Shown: positions 1-25,567 of the stretch, piece after piece
How the letters are laid out: the number at the start of each line of letters is the position of its first letter
How positions within the stretch are numbered: the first letter of the stretch is position 1
Virus record (IMG/VR): IMGVR_UViG_3300030060_004878
Coordinates: 1 to 26,152 of that record
Length of the DNA: 26,152 bases
From: a virus
Reading direction: 5' to 3' (one strand)
Notes under the pieces: generated by a model
Told to the model about the DNA's origin: nothing
The model's database searches: none
The model's input: only the letters and a program-made list of their open reading frames with translations
Program-made: the position numbers and the translations under genes

Positions 1-590
1 CCAAAAGCGGCGGTAAGTATACCTTTTGCTAGTTTGTTTTTAGGTTTTTGTTTTTTTCCTTTTTTATTTTGACCTATTAATTTGTTGTAATCATCTCTCG
101 AAGTTTCATACTCGTTATGCACGTTCTTGTAATCAATGTACATGTTTTGGTATAGTTCACTTAATTCTTCTACTCTTTTATTTGCGTCTTCAACCTCCTC
201 ATTAGAAGCATAATCAGTGTTGTTTATCCTCTCTATATCTTTTTCAATTTGCTCAAATTTAGCTTCATAGTTAAAACTACTTATAGCATTATCTAGGCTA
301 TCAAGTTTGTTTTTGCTATTTACTATTTGTGATTCCAAGGAACCATCTTCCAAATTGTATTCCGTATCTTGCTGTTGATTTATTTGAGACTGATTCGTCT
401 CTTGAGTTGATGCTGTAGTCTTTTGCTCCGCAGTCGCATCTTCTGTGGAGCTTATTTGGTTTCCCGATACATCAGATTGTATCATTGCTGTTAAACCTTT
501 TTCTTTTAATTCTGCTTGAAAAGCTTCGTCCTGTGCTGCTGGTACTTTCTTTACTCTACCATCAGACAGAACATATATTTTATCTTCCAT
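1..590 (-). CDS. N-terminal part of an unidentified internal virion-type protein (cut by window edge)
   Basis: The frame opens at ATG 588-590 and has no stop through base 1, giving at least 196 residues; the C-terminus lies outside the window. It begins MEDKIYVLSDGRVKKVP, followed by a Gln/Thr/Ser-rich stretch (about residues 40-82), then charged, probably coiled-coil helices (about 85-175), and a Lys-rich segment leading to a small hydrophobic run at the cut end. The 'YVLSDGR' opening followed by a Q/T-rich linker recalls the start of large phage proteins carried in the capsid or ejected, and its place at the end of the internal-protein cluster, downstream of the 311-aa gene (30-base gap), agrees. 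That role is inference; it could also be another structural protein. No Shine-Dalgarno sequence precedes the start. Confidence 0.75.
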   Translation of the reverse strand, partial: MEDKIYVLSDGRVKKVPAAQDEAFQAELKEKGLTAMIQSDVSGNQISSTEDATAEQKTTASTQETNQSQINQQQDTEYNLEDGSLESQIVNSKNKLDSLDNAISSFNYEAKFEQIEKDIERINNTDYASNEEVEDANKRVEELSELYQNMYIDYKNVHNEYETSRDDYNKLIGQNKKGKKQKPKNKLAKGILTAAF

Positions 591-1557: not shown

Positions 1558-2571
1558 TTAAATTATATTTTTAAATTCTACGTCTAATTTAGAGTAATCA
1601 ACAGCATCGTATCCGCTTAAGTGCTTTATGATAGCTTCTTTTGGTATTTCATCTGACATAACACCTTGGTACATTCCTTTTCCTAGGCTATCATTAATAT
1701 ATTCAAATTTATATATTCTAATACCACTTGGTGAATTACCTATGTGTTTTATATTTTTCTTAAGTCTTCTATCTGACAACATTCCAGCCATCTGACTTTG
1801 AATTCCAACAGAGGTTTGAAGAGCTGAACTAGCTCTACCCATTTCTCCTTCGTAGTATTTTTGCTGTAACTCTTTGTTCATCATCATTTCTTGCTGCTCC
1901 ATACCTATCAGCGTTTGCATTTTTTGAGCTTCAAAATTAATAGGTATTCTTCTACCTTCTCTTTCTAATCTTTCAAGTCCCTCACGTTGTTGAAGAGCTA
2001 AATTTCTATTTCTTGATTCCTCTCTTGCTATGTTGGCGGCCATTTGCTGTTCACTCACTTGGTTTTGCCTAACTAAAGATTGAGCTAAAGATGCAACACC
2101 GCTAGCGCCAGCCGTAGGTCTTAATGCTCCTAGTATATTTTTTTGACTTTGTTGAAACGCTTGTCTTTGAAATTGATATTGATTTTGGTTTATAGTTAAA
2201 TCTTCCATAGCGTTTTCCATGTTTAGATATGGATTACTCATACTAAGATTAGAATACATGTTTGTTAAACGCGATAGATTGCTTTTTGTTCTTCTAGCCT
2301 CGTCATCAGCATGTCTCTCCCTAAACAACTTGTCCATTTCTAGTTGATTTCTAGCACGTCCACCAAACGCAAAACTAGCATATTTTGCGCCAGCCAAGAC
2401 TCCACCCATAGCGCCTGTTATCACGTTTAGCATTGCGGGTCCTAAAAATGGGGCGACAAGCGCGTACACAATACCATTGTTATTGCTAGGAAATATACCT
2501 GACACTTGAATGATAAGTATCCACAGTATACAAAGTACCGCTCCAATTATTTCTTTTGTTTTGTTTTTCAT
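1558..2571 (-). CDS. Internal/ejection-type protein with N-terminal membrane segments and C-terminal S74 chaperone domain
   Basis: Three parts can be read. Residues about 8-27 and 32-66 are hydrophobic (a clear membrane helix, then a Gly/Ala-rich one). Residues about 78-245 are a Gln/Arg/Met-rich helical body paralogous to the neighbouring 246-aa protein (shared NPYxNME, FQRxxF, SGxASLAQ, LExxG). Residues 266-337 form a short peptidase S74 / intramolecular chaperone domain: SDRRLKKNI with Ser266 and Lys271 at the +5 spacing of the known Ser-Lys cleavage dyad, then SPSGIRIYKFEY and YQGVMSDEIP. In the S74 family the domain trimerises a fibre and then cuts itself off before the Ser. A membrane-active protein released by self-cleavage and delivered during DNA ejection is the likely role, by inference. 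The start lies 12 bases after the 246-aa gene. Confidence 0.85.
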   Translation of the reverse strand: MKNKTKEIIGAVLCILWILIIQVSGIFPSNNNGIVYALVAPFLGPAMLNVITGAMGGVLAGAKYASFAFGGRARNQLEMDKLFRERHADDEARRTKSNLSRLTNMYSNLSMSNPYLNMENAMEDLTINQNQYQFQRQAFQQSQKNILGALRPTAGASGVASLAQSLVRQNQVSEQQMAANIAREESRNRNLALQQREGLERLEREGRRIPINFEAQKMQTLIGMEQQEMMMNKELQQKYYEGEMGRASSALQTSVGIQSQMAGMLSDRRLKKNIKHIGNSPSGIRIYKFEYINDSLGKGMYQGVMSDEIPKEAIIKHLSGYDAVDYSKLDVEFKNII

Positions 2572-2583
2572 ATATAAAATATT

Positions 2584-3324
2584 TTATCCAATCGAGACAC
2601 CTCCAGGCGTGGGATTTGCCGCTTCAGCAACTCTATACATTCCTTTAAAAAATCCCATCATGCTTTTTGATTGCGCATTTGCCTGCTCTTGTTTTTGGTT
2701 TGCGTATGCTTGATAGTAGTCTAGCTCCTGCTTCTTATGTAAAGCGTACTCACTTTGTGTATGTCCCATTAGTAAAGATAATTTTTTAGCATCAAATTGT
2801 GCGCTTAGATTTATTCCGCTTCTTTCTAATTGTTGAAGTCTTTGAGCTTGTTGAGATGATAATGCTTTATTTTGAACTTCTTGTTCACCTATGCTAGCCG
2901 AAGCTTGTCTAGAAGCTATCATACCTTGTGTTAATAATTTTTGAGCTAAAGACGCTGTACCGCTTGGACCACCTACCCCACGTAAAGTATGTAGCATATT
3001 AACTTGACCTTGATTAAACATGTCTCTTTGAAACTCTGCTTGTTTTTTATCTACCTGTAAGTTCTCAGAACGCAAACTTTTTTCCATGTTTGTGTACGGG
3101 TTTGTTATTCTTAGAGTAGAATATATATTTTTTAATCTTTCTAATTCTATTTTGTTTTTACGAGCATTTTTCCTAGCTATATTTTCTCTATTAGTAAGAT
3201 TAGATCTTCTCCATAGCTTTCTATTTATAGCTTGAGTATTTGGATCTTCATAACGCCTCATCACGTCTCCATAAAACATATCTTCACCTTGAATATCGCT
3301 ATTAAAAATAGTTCCTCCGTTCAT
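2584..3324 (-). CDS. Internal/ejection-type protein, paralogue of the 337-aa S74 protein
   Basis: The 246-residue protein is Gln-, Ser- and Lys-rich and predicted helical, with a basic stretch at residues 34-62. Residues about 52-210 align by eye with residues 78-245 of the next gene: (I/M)(T/S)NPYxNME, FQRxxFxQ, LRxxxGxSGxASLAQ, then a Q-rich helix with QQLERSG and a Met/Gln/Lys-rich segment. It lacks both the membrane segments and the S74 domain of that protein; instead it has a short N-terminal region and a small Gly/Ala/Pro end. The pair looks like an ancient tandem duplication that diverged by gain or loss of terminal domains. A virion-internal role similar to P22 or T7 ejection proteins is inferred from position and composition, not from a recognised domain. 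Confidence 0.8.
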   Translation of the reverse strand: MNGGTIFNSDIQGEDMFYGDVMRRYEDPNTQAINRKLWRRSNLTNRENIARKNARKNKIELERLKNIYSTLRITNPYTNMEKSLRSENLQVDKKQAEFQRDMFNQGQVNMLHTLRGVGGPSGTASLAQKLLTQGMIASRQASASIGEQEVQNKALSSQQAQRLQQLERSGINLSAQFDAKKLSLLMGHTQSEYALHKKQELDYYQAYANQKQEQANAQSKSMMGFFKGMYRVAEAANPTPGGVSIG

Positions 3325-5305: not shown

Positions 5306-8300
5306 TTATAAATACACACTTGAAACAATAGAAGGATTACCAATGCCCTGAACAGTAAATTCTCCTGTATCTAAATTTGTTAAAGTTGTAGTTGTTCCGT
5401 TTATTTTATTATACCATTTACCTTCTTTTTCTATAAACTCAGGTATAGAACCACTTTGTTTATCTGTTTCAAAAGAATTAACATACCAGCCAGATTTGCT
5501 CTGTAAATTGTAAAACTCCTTAGTGTCACTAGTATTTTGAATAACCTTAGACTGAGATCCTTCGTAGCTAAACGAATTAAAAGACTTGATACTACCAGGA
5601 GCATCGTTGAATAAAACAGATACTGATGACTCGTAGCTTTGGTTCGTACTTGGATCTACACCGTAAAAACAATTATAAAGACTATTAGTGTAATGTTGGT
5701 AAATACTATTGCCTTTAGCTGTTATGTACGTGCCACTAACTGATCCCCCAGCTTCAGGAATAAAAGTTTTAAAACTAACCCACCCTTTTGACTCTTCACT
5801 AAAAGAAACTGTTTTATCATAGCTACTGCTTTCATTAGTCAAAGTTAAATTATACTCTCCACTAACCACATCAAAAGTACCCAAAGCTTTATTAGCTAGT
5901 TTCAAATTGTCTCTAAACCAACTTTTCATTCCAACGTTTGATATTGGAGTTAGTCCGTCTTGTGACAATCTAAGTACAGCACCTCTTTGCTTGTCTGTAA
6001 AGTACATTCTATATTGATCACTAGCTAATGACTCTGGGTTTTTAGATATTCCATAATCACCAACGAATGGTATTGCTGTACCAAGAACTTTTTTAGTAGC
6101 TGTTAATCCAGAACTACCATCAGCATTAAATACAGCGTCTTTACTAGATAAAACCTTCAAAACTTTGTCTTCAGTTAACACAATAACATCAGTGTCTCTT
6201 GTCTTTAATCTTTGTATTGAACCATAAGAAGGGTTTAAATCCTTAGTTATTTCTTGAGACATGTTAAATTCGTTCAAGTTATTTATCTGTGATGTAGAGT
6301 TGTATATTCCGGAGTATATCAATCCACTTGTTCTATTTTCTTTTCTGTAACCAGAGAAAGTGGTTGAAACAGTAACACCGTTATTTATTTGAGGTGCATT
6401 AAAGTCATCTCTTATTCTATCTGACTCAGCGCCGTTACCAAAAGAATAACAGTTGAACCAACTTAAATCAACGGGATATTTCCATGCGTTTTTATCAACA
6501 GAATAATAACCGGTTGGTTTATCAACTATTGTTATTTTAAATTTTCTACCCATAACACCTGCGGCTTGAAACTCTTCAAACGTCTGTAAAGTCCCATTTG
6601 AGTTTTGATAGTAAAATGGCTTTTCAGTTGCGCTGGTTAAAGTTAATACCACGTTATTGTCAGAAATACCAGCCACAACAATACCTGGAGGTGCAACACC
6701 TTCTACAGGGTCCGTCAACGTGTCATCACCATTAGCGTCAACTTCTTTAAATCCTAACACTTGAGCACCAACACTAATATCAGCTACTGTTCCAGGAGTT
6801 ATTTCATCTTGATAAAATGATACTTTGAGTAAATGCGTACCAACCGCTGGGTCCCAATCGTTACCTGCGCCATAAACCGCTGGATCCCAATCACCAGTGT
6901 CTGTAGTGTCAGGATTAGCTTGAATAGATAGTGTTCTTCTTTGAACTGGCAGATATTTAGGTATAACTTCAAATTGTTCATCATCAACAGCTCCAGGATT
7001 AGATGAAGTAGCAGTAGATAGTTTTTTAACAAAATCAGTTACTTTTAATCTAGTTCTAATGCCATCTTCATGGTGAAAGATTAATTCATCACCTATGTAA
7101 ACACCATTTACTAAATCTGTTTCAGTTCCGTCTGTATCAGTCTTTAAGTTAACTATTGGATCTGGAAGTTCACTGTTTAATAAAAGTGGTTTCGCTATTG
7201 TATTAGAAACTTTATACGTACCAGAACCAGGTAGAGTTACTTTTTCAACACCTATAGTACTAGATCTTTCACTTGATATACTACAGTTTATGGGTATGAA
7301 ATCATTTATATTATTTTCATTTAAAAACAAAGGTATTGAACTAGAAGCCTCATAGTATATATCTAAGTCAACATCTTCTTTTGGTTCAGTTTCTAATATA
7401 GCTTGATCACTATCAAATACTAATTGACGTCCCCCCATGTTTTGGTGTCTTAGTATTTGAACTTGAAGACTAATTGTCCCGTCATGTCTAACTTCACCTC
7501 TTGGATCATAAGAAGTTGTAATTACTCCTTCGTTTGTTAGTGAATTATTTGTAGTGTCAACTCTTCTAAAGTCTATTGTAAATCCCATCCTGGCATTATT
7601 ACCAGAAAAAGATGTTAAATTTTTTATTCTACCATAATAAGTTCCACCATCCCAATACATTCCATTGCGCTCATTGTCATAATCCTCTACGGCGATAACT
7701 CTATATATGTTGCTTGGATCACTTACAAAGCTAAAATGAGTGCCTAACGTGCTCATTTCTTGCATAAAATAACTATCAGATGGCTCCATTGAATCATAGC
7801 CACTATAACCAACAACAGCAAACTCTAGTCTTCCAAGACCATTACTTGGTGTTGTTGAACCCAAGCCAAGACCTGTTGCTAGATTTTGAGAAATTTCTCC
7901 AACAGAAAGTCCATTATGATCCTTAGAGTTAGACCTAGCTTGGTCAATAAATGGTCTACTATTTACACTACTTTTTCTAGCTGCCCAAAAATCTGCAGTA
8001 ACTGATTTAAATGAATAATAACCAAAACCATGCTCTAGTTTAGTTGGTATTTGAATAAAGCAATTATCGCCTCCATTTGGTGGATTTAAGTAAATAAAAG
8101 GATCGTAGTAACTACCTCTTGAAAACTTGTATACGCCATTTTCACCATAATCTCCCCAACTTGGCGATATTGGTCCATCATAATCACAACCCCAACCTGT
8201 ACATTGATCGTCATCCCAAGCTGGATCAGATCCACCGTTGGCTAAAGTAGTCCAACCACCAACCATATTAAAAGAGTTGTACCACCATCCATCGCCTTGA

Positions 8301-11300
8301 CCATACACCCATGAAGTTCCTTGATATGTTCCTGAATTAGCTGGATTACTATCTTGACTTGCAACGTAATCCACATTAAAAATACCTAAATTAACATACT
8401 CTTCATATTCTTCAGAGCTAAGTAAAACTTTTGATTCTAGCACGGGGTCAGCTTCTACTTTAACAAAAAATCTTCCATCAAATTCTGGTTTATTTTCTAT
8501 TGTTTCTTCTTTAAAATGAAGATCGTATCTTAAACCAGTAACAACACCGCCACTATAATCAAGTGAAGTATCAGCTACAAATCTAGCGTGCATATTAGCG
8601 TCTGGTCCAAATGGTTCAGCATAAAAGAATTCAAAATCACCACCAGCTGAAACACCATTGTTTGACGTTGATCCACCACTACCTCTTTGTTTCCAGTTTG
8701 TTACTTCATTCCATTTACTGTATTTTTTAACACCGGTTGCATCCGTACCACATATTTGAACACTTAGTTTTGATCTTTCTGTTTTTGGTCTATCATCAGA
8801 GCTATTAACACCCATTCCAAAAAGCCCGTCCCATTGAACAATATCAATTTGAATAGATTTAGTAGAGTCATCTAATAGTGTAACAGGTTCAGTAGTTGTA
8901 ACATCTGCTGCTGCATTTTCCCAAATACTAACACCTGTTTGCCCATCACCAGGTAGAGCTCGAACCGTACCTATATCATTGTGTTTTGTTTTTATAAAAT
9001 CAGGGGCATTACTTTCTATTGCTATTATTTTATATCTAGCCTCTTCTTTAACTGGCTCTGCAGTTCCGTTTTTAGTTTTTAAAATCAAATAAGTTTCTTC
9101 ATCAACTTTGTTTCTATCTGCCGAAGAAAATGATAGCCAAACCGTTGAACCTTTTTCATCTGCGCGATACCATCTATTTAAAACTAAATTATAGTATTCA
9201 TTAGATGTTTCTTTTACATAATACTTTACATAATCAGCCCATTCAGGAGGCTCATTATTGTCGTTAACAGGATTATCCCATCGCTGCTTTATTCTAAAAT
9301 AATTTTTAGTACTTGAAAATTCTTTAGACAAAGAGATATCTCCTGTTAAGCTAGTATAGTTATCTGCGTATCCAGTTGTATAACCAGAAGAAAAAACAGG
9401 TGTTTCTCTACCGTACTTGTCTCCAAACACCATTCCCCATTTGTAATCTCTAATAGATTTTAAAGATTTAGCTGGAACACCAACTGGGGTAGTTTCACTA
9501 ATAACTTCTTGAGATAATCCAACTGGAAGTTGTATGTCATAACCCTGAGTATAATTCGCAAATAAAAGTCTATTAGAGGTTATCTCTTGAGCATTAGCGT
9601 GCCTAGGTACGTTATCCCAGCTTCTTAAAGCTTGATCTTCTGGTAAAAGTGTATGTATACTTTCTGATGTTATACTTAATTCTCCAGAAAGTTTTTGTGT
9701 TGGATCTGTATCATTTGGCGTAAACAACTCCCACTCAGCATCTACACCTCTACTAATAGTTTTAACAACATATATACTAGGTGAATCTGTTGTTTTATAA
9801 ATTATGTCAATGCTAGAAACATCTAAAGGCCTAGTTTTAAATGGAACAAAGTCTTTTATGATAATTTCTCTAACATTGTTTTTCATTCCAACATTGTGAC
9901 TTTTTTCAACTTTATACTCAAAATCTCCTGGTAAAAATGCTAACTCAGACCAAGGGCTAAAACTAGAATACTCACCATCTTCATACTTGTATCTGTAAGC
10001 AAATCTTCCTAGCTTTAATTCAAATAAAGGTGGTTGTTGTCTTAAGCTAATATTCCAATCTGTAACAGTGGTATTTAAGTTTTCACCTTGATAAGAAACT
10101 ACTTCAACTTTTATTTTTTCAGTTGACTCATCAGTTTCCTCGCCGTCTGAAGGATCTAAGTATGAAATAAACCTACAAAGTACTTTAATTGTTTCTGATG
10201 CAACTACTGTATCGTCAGCATCTGATTCAATATATTCAGAGGTGAAATCTAGTAAATCATTTAATCTAAACAATGTATTAGCAAGAAGTTCGTCAGTAAA
10301 TACAACTATATCATTGGAATCAACTGCTAACGCGTTTTCAGCATCAACAAAAGGAGAGTTAGTTATATTTACTTCAGCTAAACCCTCTCCTCTCTCTGTA
10401 GCATTCATTGTAAGAGAAGGCGCTTTGGTTGGGGCTTTACGTATAACTGTTATGTGTTCTTCTTTTAAACTACCATCAACAACATCTCCCTCGAATCCGT
10501 ATTTTTCTAAATCAGTTACTGGAATAAGAGATTGAGAGCCTAAATCTGTTGGATCTTGCACGAAAAGTTTAGTGTGGTTATATTTTGATACCGCCGAAGT
10601 TAAAAGAGAAACATTATTAATATAAGCAAAAACAGCTCCGTCACTCGGTGGAGTTGCTTGTATTCCGTAGAATATAATATTTAGTTGTTCGCTTCCAGCA
10701 ATAAATGTATGACTATATGTTCCAATACCTGTTAAAGAAGCATTTTCATCAACAGCGTTGTTTAAGTCCGATGTTAACGTGCCACTAATAACATTGTAAT
10801 CAAAAGAATATGTATATGTGTCACCAATAGTTAGTCCAGTTACAATTTGTTGAAGTTGACCGTTATTCGCGCCATTTTCAACAGTTGTGTTCCAATGTTG
10901 TATTCCATTTATATACAATTGGTCAGAATCATTATAAACACTAGGTGTTACTACAGTACTATCTTCATTTAAACTATAGCCTTTAGTAACCCCACCAGTA
11001 ACACTCCACTCTTCAGATATAGTTATATCTTCTGTAAAATCACCATTATATACGTATTCTTCAGATTCAGAAAAAGGTGGTGTTCCAGCTATACATCTAT
11101 CTATATTTATTTTTTTAGGTTCACTATAACCATCAGTCCAAAACAACAAGTTATCAATAACGTTTATAGCTGTTATTTGATTATCGTAATTAAAATTTAA
11201 AACCTTAGGAGCAGAAAACTTAACCCAAGCTGTGTCGTTGTCAATAAGAGTACCAATAGTTGAAGCGTTGTTAAAGAATGTATGAAAAACAATTCTTGTT

Positions 11301-11914
11301 CCAGATTGACCAGGTATCGTGTTAGTGTATATAGTTTTAATTATAGCATTACTAATTTGACTAACTCCATCAGCGTTAAATATCTCTACCTGCATTCCAA
11401 CTCTTACCTTGTCTAATAGACTTGTGTTTGCTATTTCCAACTCAGACCACTGAGTATTGTCAGAATTATAACCAGATATTGAGCTATTAGTGCCAAACGC
11501 TTCTTTTGCTCTAACTAATATAGTGTGTTCGTCGATAACAACAGGGGTTGTAGTGCCATCAACATTTTGTTGTATTATACTATCTGAAAATACTAACACG
11601 CTAGATGAAGATAAACTATTTAAACCGATTGAACCTATGGGTGGCGCTGCCATGAAAAAATATATATTATCATTTTTTTCATCTGTAACACTACCTATTG
11701 ATTTAGTTTTATTTTGTGTTAACGGATTTGTTACGTTCGAAAAAGTACCTATTAGTGTATTACCTTTTATACCTTGAACTGTACCAGCAGCATCTCCATC
11801 AGTTGTTCTAACTTGAATGTTACTAGCGTCTCTATATTCGCCGTTTGGAACAAGTCTTTCATCAAGGTCCTTGTTCATTTTCCCACCTGTAAAAGTATGT
11901 TTTATTTCTGGCAT
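5306..11914 (-). CDS. Giant tail stabilization / muzzle-type protein, 2202 aa
   Basis: At 6.6 kb it is a quarter of the window. The N-terminus (FTGGKMNKDLDERLVPNGEYRDA, residues 8-30) is the hallmark I know from the stabilization (muzzle) proteins of crAss-like and related marine podoviruses. The C-terminal third has SGLIYSGIYN (1863-1872), YGSIQRLKTRD, LTEDKVLK, GDYGISKNPES, MYFTDKQRG and LSQDGLTPISNVGM (about 1984-1997), a beta-propeller-like array. In crAss-like virions this protein forms the tail end below the rings, in keeping with its place right after the ring genes (4-base gap). Extra modules seem inserted: a jelly-roll CBM-like segment (about 286-440), a Trp/Gly/Cys-rich segment (about 1195-1300), and a beta-rich region (about 1600-1800) with a repeated DWDPAV. 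These probably touch host surface glycans, which is inference. Confidence 0.85.
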   Translation of the reverse strand: MPEIKHTFTGGKMNKDLDERLVPNGEYRDASNIQVRTTDGDAAGTVQGIKGNTLIGTFSNVTNPLTQNKTKSIGSVTDEKNDNIYFFMAAPPIGSIGLNSLSSSSVLVFSDSIIQQNVDGTTTPVVIDEHTILVRAKEAFGTNSSISGYNSDNTQWSELEIANTSLLDKVRVGMQVEIFNADGVSQISNAIIKTIYTNTIPGQSGTRIVFHTFFNNASTIGTLIDNDTAWVKFSAPKVLNFNYDNQITAINVIDNLLFWTDGYSEPKKINIDRCIAGTPPFSESEEYVYNGDFTEDITISEEWSVTGGVTKGYSLNEDSTVVTPSVYNDSDQLYINGIQHWNTTVENGANNGQLQQIVTGLTIGDTYTYSFDYNVISGTLTSDLNNAVDENASLTGIGTYSHTFIAGSEQLNIIFYGIQATPPSDGAVFAYINNVSLLTSAVSKYNHTKLFVQDPTDLGSQSLIPVTDLEKYGFEGDVVDGSLKEEHITVIRKAPTKAPSLTMNATERGEGLAEVNITNSPFVDAENALAVDSNDIVVFTDELLANTLFRLNDLLDFTSEYIESDADDTVVASETIKVLCRFISYLDPSDGEETDESTEKIKVEVVSYQGENLNTTVTDWNISLRQQPPLFELKLGRFAYRYKYEDGEYSSFSPWSELAFLPGDFEYKVEKSHNVGMKNNVREIIIKDFVPFKTRPLDVSSIDIIYKTTDSPSIYVVKTISRGVDAEWELFTPNDTDPTQKLSGELSITSESIHTLLPEDQALRSWDNVPRHANAQEITSNRLLFANYTQGYDIQLPVGLSQEVISETTPVGVPAKSLKSIRDYKWGMVFGDKYGRETPVFSSGYTTGYADNYTSLTGDISLSKEFSSTKNYFRIKQRWDNPVNDNNEPPEWADYVKYYVKETSNEYYNLVLNRWYRADEKGSTVWLSFSSADRNKVDEETYLILKTKNGTAEPVKEEARYKIIAIESNAPDFIKTKHNDIGTVRALPGDGQTGVSIWENAAADVTTTEPVTLLDDSTKSIQIDIVQWDGLFGMGVNSSDDRPKTERSKLSVQICGTDATGVKKYSKWNEVTNWKQRGSGGSTSNNGVSAGGDFEFFYAEPFGPDANMHARFVADTSLDYSGGVVTGLRYDLHFKEETIENKPEFDGRFFVKVEADPVLESKVLLSSEEYEEYVNLGIFNVDYVASQDSNPANSGTYQGTSWVYGQGDGWWYNSFNMVGGWTTLANGGSDPAWDDDQCTGWGCDYDGPISPSWGDYGENGVYKFSRGSYYDPFIYLNPPNGGDNCFIQIPTKLEHGFGYYSFKSVTADFWAARKSSVNSRPFIDQARSNSKDHNGLSVGEISQNLATGLGLGSTTPSNGLGRLEFAVVGYSGYDSMEPSDSYFMQEMSTLGTHFSFVSDPSNIYRVIAVEDYDNERNGMYWDGGTYYGRIKNLTSFSGNNARMGFTIDFRRVDTTNNSLTNEGVITTSYDPRGEVRHDGTISLQVQILRHQNMGGRQLVFDSDQAILETEPKEDVDLDIYYEASSSIPLFLNENNINDFIPINCSISSERSSTIGVEKVTLPGSGTYKVSNTIAKPLLLNSELPDPIVNLKTDTDGTETDLVNGVYIGDELIFHHEDGIRTRLKVTDFVKKLSTATSSNPGAVDDEQFEVIPKYLPVQRRTLSIQANPDTTDTGDWDPAVYGAGNDWDPAVGTHLLKVSFYQDEITPGTVADISVGAQVLGFKEVDANGDDTLTDPVEGVAPPGIVVAGISDNNVVLTLTSATEKPFYYQNSNGTLQTFEEFQAAGVMGRKFKITIVDKPTGYYSVDKNAWKYPVDLSWFNCYSFGNGAESDRIRDDFNAPQINNGVTVSTTFSGYRKENRTSGLIYSGIYNSTSQINNLNEFNMSQEITKDLNPSYGSIQRLKTRDTDVIVLTEDKVLKVLSSKDAVFNADGSSGLTATKKVLGTAIPFVGDYGISKNPESLASDQYRMYFTDKQRGAVLRLSQDGLTPISNVGMKSWFRDNLKLANKALGTFDVVSGEYNLTLTNESSSYDKTVSFSEESKGWVSFKTFIPEAGGSVSGTYITAKGNSIYQHYTNSLYNCFYGVDPSTNQSYESSVSVLFNDAPGSIKSFNSFSYEGSQSKVIQNTSDTKEFYNLQSKSGWYVNSFETDKQSGSIPEFIEKEGKWYNKINGTTTTLTNLDTGEFTVQGIGNPSIVSSVYL

Positions 11915-23317: not shown

Positions 23318-24496
23318 TTACGATATTCCGTATTTTGTTTTTAAGTATGTTTCTATACCACTTATTTCTTCTGATGATAATTTTTTACTATAAATTATTA
23401 TTTCATATATACCATTTGATTGGTCATCTTCTAAATCATCTGTGTCTCCCCAGTTCCAAGAAGCACCACTACTTAATGCTCCGTGATTACCACCAGAACT
23501 AGCATTAAATCTTGCACCAATTTCTATTTTATCAAACTTGTGACTATCATGACTACCAGCAGCACCACCAATGTGACCTAAGTGTAATTTAGTGCTTCCT
23601 GAGTCACCATCAACTTTACCATCTGAAGTGTTTCCATTTTTATAAAGCTTTGATGAACCACTACCACCACCTATTGTTGTGATGATTTGAGCTCCAGATG
23701 TTACTTCTGGTGAATCGGGAGAAGGATCAGTGAAAGTATTACGTTCATTACCACTGCCATAAGCAATCACTTTCTGACCTGTCCCATAGCTTGCTGATAC
23801 ATTTGTTCTACCAAACTCAGCATTCCAATAGTCTGGGTTGCTAGATCCATTACCAGCGCCAACAGAGTGTAACGATAAAGTACCATTAGAACTTGTTTTT
23901 CCACTTATTCTAATTACTGATTTCCATGTTTGTGATGAAGAATGAAACCAATCACCTGCCACAAACTCAACATTTGGTGGTTTTGCTACGGTAAATATAG
24001 TGATATTTTCTGGATCTAATATAGAGGTTGATAAAACATTGTCATAATTACTGTCAAAATTACTAATTCTAGTATTCATATCAGCTTCACTAACTCCTTG
24101 TATTTGATCAGCACTCATATTTGAGTAAACGTAATCATGTGGTATGCCGCCGTGACTAGTTGCCCAACCAGAAACAAAACCAGCCGTACTACCCAAACTA
24201 ACATAAGACTTACCATTTGCACCACCGGTTGTATATCCATTAGCATAATCACTTCCACCAACATCACTTTTAACAGCGAATTTACCAAGCATTAATGGAG
24301 AATTATTATTAGTATAAGCCTTATTGTCCACTCTTGCAATAACATCTCCACTAGAAGAAACATTTGTAGACCCAGCGTCTGTATACATTGATGAAGCATC
24401 AGTAAAATCCCACCAACCTACTAAATCAGATATATCTGTTGGAATTATTTCAATAGGATAATTATTAAACACTAGTCCACTTGATAATCCTAACAT
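23318..24496 (-). CDS. LamG / concanavalin A-like lectin-fold virion protein, 392 aa
   Basis: Residues 21-60 (DISDLVGWWDFTDASSMYTD, then VIARVDNKA) and the C-terminus (GIYEIIIYSKKLSSEEISGI followed by ETYLKTKYGIS, 362-392) are the start and end signatures of LamG-like concanavalin A-type domains common on phage surface proteins. Between them the chain is Gly/Ser/Asn-rich with short beta-strand patterns (ENITIFTVAKPP, KVDGDSGSTKLHLGHIGG). The fold often binds glycans, so host-cell or mucus attachment, or capsid decoration, is likely; the exact role is inferred. It lies before the packaging genes and beside two small paralogous proteins, far from the tail genes, which favours a head decoration or head-fibre position. 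The start overlaps the 120-aa stop (TAATG). Confidence 0.8.
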   Translation of the reverse strand: MLGLSSGLVFNNYPIEIIPTDISDLVGWWDFTDASSMYTDAGSTNVSSSGDVIARVDNKAYTNNNSPLMLGKFAVKSDVGGSDYANGYTTGGANGKSYVSLGSTAGFVSGWATSHGGIPHDYVYSNMSADQIQGVSEADMNTRISNFDSNYDNVLSTSILDPENITIFTVAKPPNVEFVAGDWFHSSSQTWKSVIRISGKTSSNGTLSLHSVGAGNGSSNPDYWNAEFGRTNVSASYGTGQKVIAYGSGNERNTFTDPSPDSPEVTSGAQIITTIGGGSGSSKLYKNGNTSDGKVDGDSGSTKLHLGHIGGAAGSHDSHKFDKIEIGARFNASSGGNHGALSSGASWNWGDTDDLEDDQSNGIYEIIIYSKKLSSEEISGIETYLKTKYGIS

Positions 24497-24858
24497 TAGT
24501 CTCCTATATAAGCTATAATAGGTGTTGCTGCGTTATTTGTTATCTTGGTCCACCTACCATATATTGTTATTCCTTTTGGAAAAGTATTTCCATTATCTAT
24601 AACGTCGCCGCCTGTACCTGATGTAGTTGACCTAGAGCCAGCGTCATGAGCAAGTGTTCCAGTACCTATATATTCTAATCCGTTTTCTGTATTATTATCA
24701 GCAACTAAGCCATTAGTGCTATTAAATACAGTGTCCGCTAGCATTGTTATAGCAACAAACACCTTGTCTGTTGGTGGTTCTATCGCTCCAGTAGTGTCGC
24801 TAAAAACACTACCCATTTGTCCAAACCCATATTCTACTGTATTATGTTTATATGCCAT
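24496..24858 (-). CDS. Small beta-rich protein, paralogue of the 114-aa gene; decoration candidate, 120 aa
   Basis: Shares with the protein at 25223-25567 the signatures YGFGQMGSxF (residues 10-19), PPTxKVxVAITxL (28-40), GLVAD (50-54), FPxGxTIYGRWT (93-104) and a final IxYxGD/N. The Gly/Thr-rich, charge-poor composition and PP-x-VxVAI strand suggest a compact beta sandwich. Both copies are about 115-120 residues and sit either side of one gene. In related marine phages such proteins appear near head genes, so head decoration or a knob on fibres is my inference; no domain name is known to me. It ends TAATG into the lectin-like gene. Confidence 0.78.
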   Translation of the reverse strand: MAYKHNTVEYGFGQMGSVFSDTTGAIEPPTDKVFVAITMLADTVFNSTNGLVADNNTENGLEYIGTGTLAHDAGSRSTTSGTGGDVIDNGNTFPKGITIYGRWTKITNNAATPIIAYIGD

Positions 24859-24878: not shown

Positions 24879-25223
24879 TTAACAATTTGATCTTGATCTT
24901 ATAACACCAGCAGAGTCTACCTCTATACTATAGGTTGATTTTCCGACAACTATCTTATAGTGACCAGCTGTAATTTTATTATTAGAACGAGCTCTTCTTG
25001 TTGAGTATATTATATCATTTACATCAGGCGCCGCAGATGTTCCGTTGTGATAAAAAGTTTCACTCATTGATCCCGGGTAACCACAAGCAGGTCTAGGTTG
25101 TACTGGAGAAGATGTTATAGAATTATAACCTCTTGCTACCGTAACCTCTTTGTGTCTTTTTGCTATAACAGATTTAGCCTTGCCTCTAGCTTGACCCATG
25201 CTCATGTTGTTACCTAGTCCCAT
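24879..25223 (-). CDS. Small hypothetical protein with basic N-terminus, 114 aa
   Basis: A start at 25223 is preferred over an in-frame ATG at 25241, because it gives the TAATG overlap with the preceding gene seen elsewhere in this operon, and because the protein then opens MGLGNNMSMGQARGKAKSVI, a form I recall from marine phages (GLGNNMSMGQARGK). The first 35 residues are Gly/Ala/Lys/Arg-rich and basic; the rest has Ser/Thr/Tyr-rich beta character (SETFYHNGTSAAPDVNDIIY, HYKIVVGKSTYSIEVDSAG). Cysteines lie at 47 and at the very last residue (114). Its setting between two paralogous decoration candidates suggests a virion component. Function unknown. Confidence 0.75.
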   Translation of the reverse strand: MGLGNNMSMGQARGKAKSVIAKRHKEVTVARGYNSITSSPVQPRPACGYPGSMSETFYHNGTSAAPDVNDIIYSTRRARSNNKITAGHYKIVVGKSTYSIEVDSAGVIRSRSNC

Positions 25224-25567
25224 TAGTTTCCAAAATAGCAAATTATTCCACCATCTGCATCTGCACCACTTAAAGTAACGCTAGTCCATCTTCCATATAT
25301 CGTAAGTCCAGCTGGAAATTTTGTGCTTGAGTCCGTAGGATCAGCTCCACCACCATTACCTGTAACAGCCGCTGAGTGACTGAAAAAGGCAGCATCATTA
25401 CCTTGTGCTGTATCTGCTACCAAACCAGCTAAAGTTTGATCAGCAACTAAAAACGTTATAGCTACTATTACCTTTCCAGTTGGAGGAGTAAAAGCTCCAG
25501 CAGTATTTACAAAACCACTACCTAATTGTCCGAAGTCATAAGCAACTCCTTGTGAATTTATTCCCAT
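25223..25567 (-). CDS. Small beta-rich protein, first of two paralogues; decoration candidate, 114 aa
   Basis: Opens MGINSQGVAYDFGQLGSGFV and carries GAFTPPTGKVIVAITFL (residues 24-40), GLVAD (48-52) and FPAGLTIYGRWTSVT (84-98), all shared with the gene at 24496-24858; the middle (53-83) is divergent and Gly/Ala/Asp-rich. It starts 2 bases after the holin stop and ends in a TAATG overlap. Length and composition fit a small capsid decoration or fibre-knob protein, but that is inferred from neighbours. No catalytic residues or membrane segments are seen. A recent duplication is unlikely, as the two copies share only scattered blocks. Confidence 0.78.
   Translation of the reverse strand: MGINSQGVAYDFGQLGSGFVNTAGAFTPPTGKVIVAITFLVADQTLAGLVADTAQGNDAAFFSHSAAVTGNGGGADPTDSSTKFPAGLTIYGRWTSVTLSGADADGGIICYFGN

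Follow-up and report, generated by a model that had tools for sequence, protein, structure and literature searches.

The S74 domain is best known on tail fibres and spikes; it is regarded as an aid to the folding of tail spikes, and its carriers are often given the name "tail fiber". The locus analysed here lies in a window of 26,152 nucleotides (the whole stretch of viral DNA under study, positions 1 to 26,152 of IMG/VR record IMGVR_UViG_3300030060_004878) and raises the question of what a short S74 domain would do at the end of a protein that starts with hydrophobic segments and is encoded among putative ejection genes. An earlier sequence-only reading had proposed that the domain trimerises and releases an internal, membrane-active protein. 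The features concerned are listed in Table 1; related loci collected in the searches carry L numbers.

Table 1 Features of the window around the short S74 domain, with the evidence for each.
Feature	Position	Strand	Evidence
Start of third cassette gene, cut at record end	3..590	-	ORF list
Second cassette gene, 311 aa	621..1556	-	No convincing Pfam or PHROG family match
337-aa protein with two hydrophobic segments, helical body and C-terminal short S74; putative first ejection-cassette protein	1558..2571	-	ATG start; body hold-out HMM E 3.5e-31; PHROG 6121
First hydrophobic segment, residues 5-30	2482..2559	-	Peak mean Kyte-Doolittle 2.61; predicted helix 2-23
Second hydrophobic segment, residues 33-52	2416..2475	-	Peak Kyte-Doolittle 1.81
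Helical body, residues 84-247 (40% identity with paralogue)	1831..2322	-	Low-confidence model of the whole protein predicts helices 129-153, 159-205, 210-251
Short S74 domain, residues 266-337, up to stop codon	1561..1776	-	Domain model pLDDT 80.9
Ser266, predicted cleavage directly N-terminal of it	1774..1776	-	Sequence; Ser in 109/109 and 23/23 domains
Lys271, second dyad residue	1759..1761	-	Sequence; Lys in 109/109 and 23/23 domains
246-aa body paralogue without hydrophobic segment and without S74	2584..3324	-	Hold-out HMM E 9.2e-32; pair also in L003
2202-aa protein upstream of cassette	5306..11914	-	Gene order: in phi38:1, elemo and Panino this place is taken by large virion structural proteins

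The terminase and capsid proteins of the window match those of Flavobacterium elemo phages, Cellulophaga phages (including phi38:1 and phi46:3), Maribacter phage Panino and Manatee Spring podovirus, and a PHROG scan names terminase, portal and virion proteins. These matches indicate that the record is likely a fragment of a Bacteroidetes podovirus. The gene at 1558-2571, which the paralogue precedes in the window, is located downstream of the tail-region genes and opens an internal cassette of three genes; the 311-aa gene comes next, and then the truncated third gene. The second gene was present in all 70 family loci having at least 1500 nt downstream and was complete in 65 (315-722 aa). The third was observed in 61 family loci: 11 hold it complete, with 2469-3622 aa, and in 50 it is truncated by the locus end. 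One complete and one partial third protein returned nothing convincing from Pfam and PHROG. By analogy, the gene at 1558-2571 would occupy the place of P22 gp7 or T7 gp14 as the first gene of an ejection cassette, and its product would probably be packed in the capsid of this marine phage and then injected into the host. Pfam and PHROG family scans of the protein gave no match to the P22 gp7 or T7 gp14 families.

The open reading frame contains 337 codons ahead of its stop, and the ATG start is supported by the L003 homologue, which opens with the identical ten residues MKNKTKEIIG. Both hydrophobic segments and the helical body described in the sequence-only reading were confirmed, the helices by prediction (Table 1); residues 61-265 reach a Kyte-Doolittle maximum of 0.84. 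Among 82 complete S74 proteins of the family, 32 reach 1.6 within their first 60 residues, two reach 2.2 and the highest value is 2.25, exceeded by that of the window protein; the L003 membrane copy reaches 1.97. A hydrophobic start is therefore frequent in the family, and that of the window protein is the strongest. The whole-protein structure model was of low confidence (pLDDT 68.3, pTM 0.28), as was the linker at residues 247-265.

An HMM grown from the window body recruited 101 of 1,818 ORFs in the loci collected at that stage. A hold-out HMM (94 members), from which L001-L003 and the cultured phages L006-L009 had been excluded, recovered both the window body and the paralogue with the E-values in Table 1, and also phi38:1 gp99 (2.6e-10), Panino (8.6e-5) and phi46:3 (0.0013), the weak values needing caution because the bodies are biased in composition. 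The value for elemo (0.13) was not significant, and no body homology was detected by this HMM in H6/1, PAE2, Mwe-JY13 or MW202675. The identity between the window protein and its paralogue extends over residues 84-247, and L003 carries the same gene pair, its membrane copy ending at the contig edge after 87 residues. Used alone as a query, the paralogue found no match in phages and none that was confirmed in viral contigs, and the L018 protein likewise found none in phages. A weak Pfam match of the paralogue to GNAT (E 0.93) was taken as chance.

Annotation of the relatives points to the virion. The window protein matches PHROG 6121, "virion structural protein" (E 4.9e-16), as do 42 of 44 members of a family alignment; among the same 44 relatives, five match PHROG 4287, "DNA ejection protein", and one matches PHROG 598, "DNA ejection". 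A Pfam scan of the window protein matched no ejection family. Alignment by hhalign to phi38:1 gp99, an S74-less "virion structural protein", gave a probability of 93% (E 2.5e-7). Together with elemo gp23 and phi46:3 gp117, gp99 matches PHROG 13764, virion structural protein, and occupies the same cassette place as the window protein, but all three are shorter (200-228 aa) and without S74; in body they range from related (phi38:1) through weakly alike (phi46:3) to not significant (elemo). Gene order, paralogy, the PHROGs of the relatives and the P22-like phages, which have S74 on the equivalent protein, lend good support to the earlier proposal that the protein is internal and of ejection type and that its N-terminus is membrane-like. 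That the observation is real and the protein of ejection type is a conclusion held with considerable confidence.

The S74 domain runs for 72 residues from Ser266 to the stop codon, and the ORF, its translation and an identity of 86% to the domains of L013/L014 (E 5e-40, with the candidate stretches as reference) bear out the proposed short copy with an intact Ser266/Lys271 dyad. Judged from sequence, the match is far beyond chance. Asp267 and Gly303 are also present, and the 27,334-base record contains a single S74 copy according to a profile in which the domain of the window protein was included. The window protein reaches 15 bits with Pfam PF13884, whose curated score is 22 bits; the family relatives L094, L095 and L099 score 26.7, 21.8 and 18.1 bits, and five other phage proteins with short S74 domains 27.8 to 43.8 bits. 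A fairly confident model of the domain plus a 10-residue lead showed no C-terminal helix of four residues or more. No S74/ICA structure was among the Foldseek or VIA-align matches of the models, where the rows were weak, with many kinases, and exclude nothing. The sole PDB sequence-profile match of S74 was the long tail fibre 6f45 (E 0.49), and a PDB sequence search with the single domain gave nothing useful.

Comparison with the characterised PF13884/ICA proteins, namely K1F endosialidase, T5 pb1 and MYRF, shows a shared Ser-Lys dyad five residues apart, a shared Asp(+1), a conserved Gly about 37 residues on and the C-terminal place seen in the phage proteins. In K1F, T5 and MYRF, Lys activates Ser, Asn/Asp(+1) and the later Gly matter and trimers are required (PMC3742443, PMC4690869, PMC8326128). 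The domain comprises 133 residues in T5 pb1 and about 115 in MYRF (S578 to R692), compared with 72 in the window protein. The C-terminal coiled coil of the MYRF ICA is its main trimerising force (PMC8326128), and disruption of this coiled coil stops processing (PMC3742443). In contrast to full-length ICA domains, the window domain has no C-terminal trimeric coiled-coil helix, the stop being where it is, and follows a body that is predicted to be helical; it was filed as a short variant rather than as a full-length S74/ICA member because that helix is missing. Trimerisation by S74, as had been proposed, found no support, since the domain ends short of the coiled coil by which the MYRF domain of known structure trimerises. 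Also absent is the upstream triple beta-helix that supplies an Arg to phage-type S74, the corresponding region of the window protein being predicted helical. T5 and endoNF use such an upstream beta-structured Arg (PMC4690869, PMC8326128), and MYRF cleavage does not use the stalk, so that upstream residues need not participate (PMC8326128). MYRF, a eukaryotic membrane-anchored protein, resembles the window protein in carrying an S74-type cleavage domain on a membrane protein. In MYRF the membrane segment follows the ICA and cleavage frees the N-terminal part, whereas in the window protein the hydrophobic segments precede the cut and cleavage would therefore free only the 72-residue tail.

Conservation of the dyad was assessed with a DNA pattern for GVMSDE[I/V]P that is neutral on the dyad and was matched by at least 120 loci. 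An S74 motif stretch was present in 116 of 120 rows, L117 being dropped as too short and L189, L191 and L196 as chance matches; 89 of the 113 unique S74 proteins among the matches listed belong to the body family of the window protein. Among the matches listed there were 109 distinct domains, and in these both Ser and Lys were found 109 times, Asp(+1) 108, Arg(+2) 106, Arg(+3) 92 and Leu(+4) 101 times. Position +3 thus has 17 exceptions and position +4 eight, and among nine motif positions only Ser and Lys have none. Conservation of the GVMSDE[IV]P block in these rows is uninformative because the pattern itself imposes it. With a pattern placed on another part of the domain, both dyad residues were present in 23 of 23 loci from bacterial genome and MAG contigs, these being the tblastn-confirmed loci out of 76 pattern matches, a step that slightly favours motif-bearing domains. 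Asp(+1) and Arg(+2) are almost as invariant as the dyad, so that its conservation may be structural.

The domain is not a fixed part of the protein. A control profile of 13 bodies without S74 gave 540 confirmed relatives, and among the 77 complete-ended proteins in the best 80 of these 540, which are for that reason a sample and not a census, S74 was found in eight (seven by motif script and L231 by eye). A looser motif returned the same eight plus L269, a chance match by eye. Over the whole 80 records the S74 profile matched 12, comprising eight strong matches (about 1e-37 or better) and four weak ones (1.5e-9 to 4.6e-4) to distant S74 domains on other frames, and found none in the remaining 68, which include records of 61-67 kb. 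S74 as a standard part of the body family was ruled out by this body-selected scan, and the idea that the protein needs S74 is weakened because 69 of the 77 complete homologues are without it.

Gain and loss were followed on a quickly built tree whose 152 bodies (80 S74 carriers, 72 S74-less) are not a random sample and whose long branches include that of the window. The S74 label changes 27 times on this tree, at least 16 of the changes being forced by starred branches; the shuffled mean is about 51, and none of 500 shuffles was as low. The correlation between body and S74 distances is weak but significant (rho 0.27, n=76; none of 500 permutations reached it), and the nearest neighbours by S74 and by body agree in 33 of 76 cases. 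The clustered label and a rho above all permutations therefore indicate that descent is partly vertical. The domain has also moved: S74 of the window and of L099 is 87% identical while the bodies are 33% identical, and 13 of the 68 pairs with S74 identity of at least 80% have bodies below 40% identity. The body up to Ser in S74 carriers has a median length of 245 aa, compared with 246 aa for S74-less homologues; in both the tree and the length comparison S74 bodies above 320 aa were excluded and S74-less proteins were not length-filtered. Since gain and loss are frequent among related viruses, the domain looks like an optional add-on. The best reading of these sequences is an optional, horizontally moving and putatively self-removing C-terminal module.

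S74 on ejection-type proteins is, on sequence and gene order, recurrent across many phages, and homologues in phage and viral-contig searches ruled out that it is unique to the window phage. A tblastn search with the window protein returned four phage records (H6/1, PAE2, Mwe-JY13 and MW202675), aligned only in or near S74. In the first three of these, S74 forms the C-terminus of a protein whose gene is followed by two genes of 383-782 aa, with ejection annotation only in H6/1: Pseudoalteromonas virus H6/1 gp17 is a "putative ejection protein" with S74, and the next two genes are annotated likewise. A second search gave 21 records, including phiGT1, pCB2047-C, RHph_N2 and EBPR podovirus 2 and also annotated tail fibres and spikes. 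In phiGT1, gene phiGT1_17 carries S74 (named in its GenBank note), and the next two genes are each annotated "putative internal virion protein/injection protein"; the phiGT1 paper (PMC10386132) reports mass spectrometry. PAE2, Mwe-JY13, pCB2047-C, RHph_N2 and EBPR podovirus 2 have the same layout by gene order alone. H6/1 gp17 and its gene-order equivalents in PAE2, phiGT1, pCB2047-C, RHph_N2 and Mwe-JY13 thus resemble the window protein in their short C-terminal S74 and the two cassette genes that follow, but the bodies in H6/1, PAE2 and Mwe-JY13 are not detectably homologous by HMM, and gp17 is without the hydrophobic start (0.68). Among the open-licence papers listed by a literature search, none connects S74 with ejection proteins in its title or abstract opening. 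The S74 domain itself is known; what is new is a short, optional and moving form of it on internal proteins.

The domain also changes place within the cassette. In L102 and L140 the second cassette protein (735 and 715 aa) carries S74 and the first does not, the first protein of L102 being clearly of the body family (hhalign E 1.4e-42), and a second-type protein with S74 is present in L192, a fragment without the first gene. In L022 S74 is absent from the family protein (219 aa) but present on a 301-aa protein encoded in the same region, and in L143 S74 is found on two proteins. S74 is here an optional end of probably injected proteins and sits on differing proteins within one cassette. Among the 38 records of at least 35 kb in the 80 listed loci, all chosen for having S74, 36 hold one domain, one holds two and one holds three.

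A mechanism consistent with these results would begin with the acquisition of the short S74, the last 72 residues, through recombination. After synthesis the protein would oligomerise through its helical body, where helices 159-205 and 210-251 of the model, rather than a C-terminal helix, could unite the subunits. Lys271 would then activate Ser266, the Leu265-Ser266 bond would break and the 72 residues would depart, leaving in the virion residues 1-265, which would resemble the S74-less homologues. The product would be carried inside the head and reach the cell envelope upon ejection, the N-terminal hydrophobic segments meeting a membrane there. Self-cleavage, which the sequence-only reading had also put forward, is made plausible by the invariant dyad and by S74-less homologues whose length equals the cleaved length, and we regard it as moderately probable; the ejection type was upheld and trimerisation was not. 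The complete scheme, an ejection protein with an optional self-removing S74, is judged slightly better than evenly balanced. The catalytic pair is undecayed in every domain counted, and about nine in ten of the sampled homologues are without S74, which raises the questions of whether a 72-residue S74 can cut without a coiled coil and what purpose it serves if it is mostly absent.

A possible but doubtful alternative is that the short S74 does not cleave and is retained in the virion as a docking or capping domain that attaches an ejection protein (first or second) or a fibre to its partner. The trimerising coiled coil is missing, while the S74 domains studied need trimers for cleavage, and conservation extends past the dyad, with 12 invariant columns across five domains (the window and four other phages) that include a Gly, a Tyr, a Glu, a Val and a Tyr distant from it. 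A docking role would also suit the presence of S74 on the second cassette protein in L102, L140 and L192 with none on the first in L102 and L140. It would not readily account for Ser and Lys alone being without exception in the 109 domains, and the absence of S74 from most body-selected homologues would be odd for a dock.

We consider it unlikely that the short S74 behaves as a C-terminal mobile element of phage genes that excises itself, the counterpart of an intein at the protein end. Such an element would spread by recombination between distant phages, and selection for its own removal, not a need of the carrier, would maintain its dyad. Because it would remove itself, it could be added harmlessly to nearly any virion gene at its end.

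Still less probable is the canonical role, in which S74 would be a trimerisation chaperone needed for folding of the body, as in endosialidase, and removed afterwards. The dyad, Asp(+1) and Gly(+37) do match residues required in K1F and MYRF, with the spacing read from sequence, but the S74-less body of L218 is 86% identical to that of the S74 carrier L121, the neighbouring paralogue manages without S74, the C-terminal coiled coil is missing and the upstream region is predicted helical. That the gene at 1558-2571 encodes a tail fibre or spike rather than an internal protein is very improbable, because the familiar setting of S74, a weak match to PHROG 1980 "tail fiber protein" (4.8e-4) and the same S74 type on fibre-like ORFs of other phages are set against a helical body, a position ahead of the giant third protein, the ejection PHROGs of the relatives and the N-terminal hydrophobic segments. 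For annotators, the preferred reading of an ejection protein with an optional S74 carries the caution that such S74 proteins should not be named fibres.

Several further arrangements of S74 were observed. In MW202675 (L012:5179-8736) the domain lies at residues 277-327 inside a 1185-aa protein, upstream of a transglycosylase SLT domain (601-694, E 4.3e-26), and it is similarly placed within a frame of ~1196 aa in L308; cleavage at these internal sites would divide the protein in two. G005, the record of L107, has three S74 domains in 42 kb, on frames of 269, 639 and 1175 aa. Within the window, a 120-aa protein encoded at 24879-25241 (minus strand) matches the fibre-like body of L049:1521-2183 (32% over 71 aa, E 2e-6 in a single comparison) and stops at the same Cys, three residues after which S74 starts in L049, a junction with and without S74 in another gene; its comparison with a second fibre-like body, L025, was not significant (E 0.068). 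The genes on either side, at 24496-24858 and 25223-25567 (both minus strand), encode small paralogues of each other (43% identical, E 5e-24). In L170:2044-4539 and L179:5537-8017 (831 and 826 aa), S74 follows a Hint/intein-like stretch ending in HN, identified by eye, and two consecutive self-cleaving domains would be unusual. L043, L044, L048, L050 and L051 encode proteins of 600-820 aa that end in a short S74 and that we take, by eye, to resemble the gp5-type baseplate hubs of T4-like phages.
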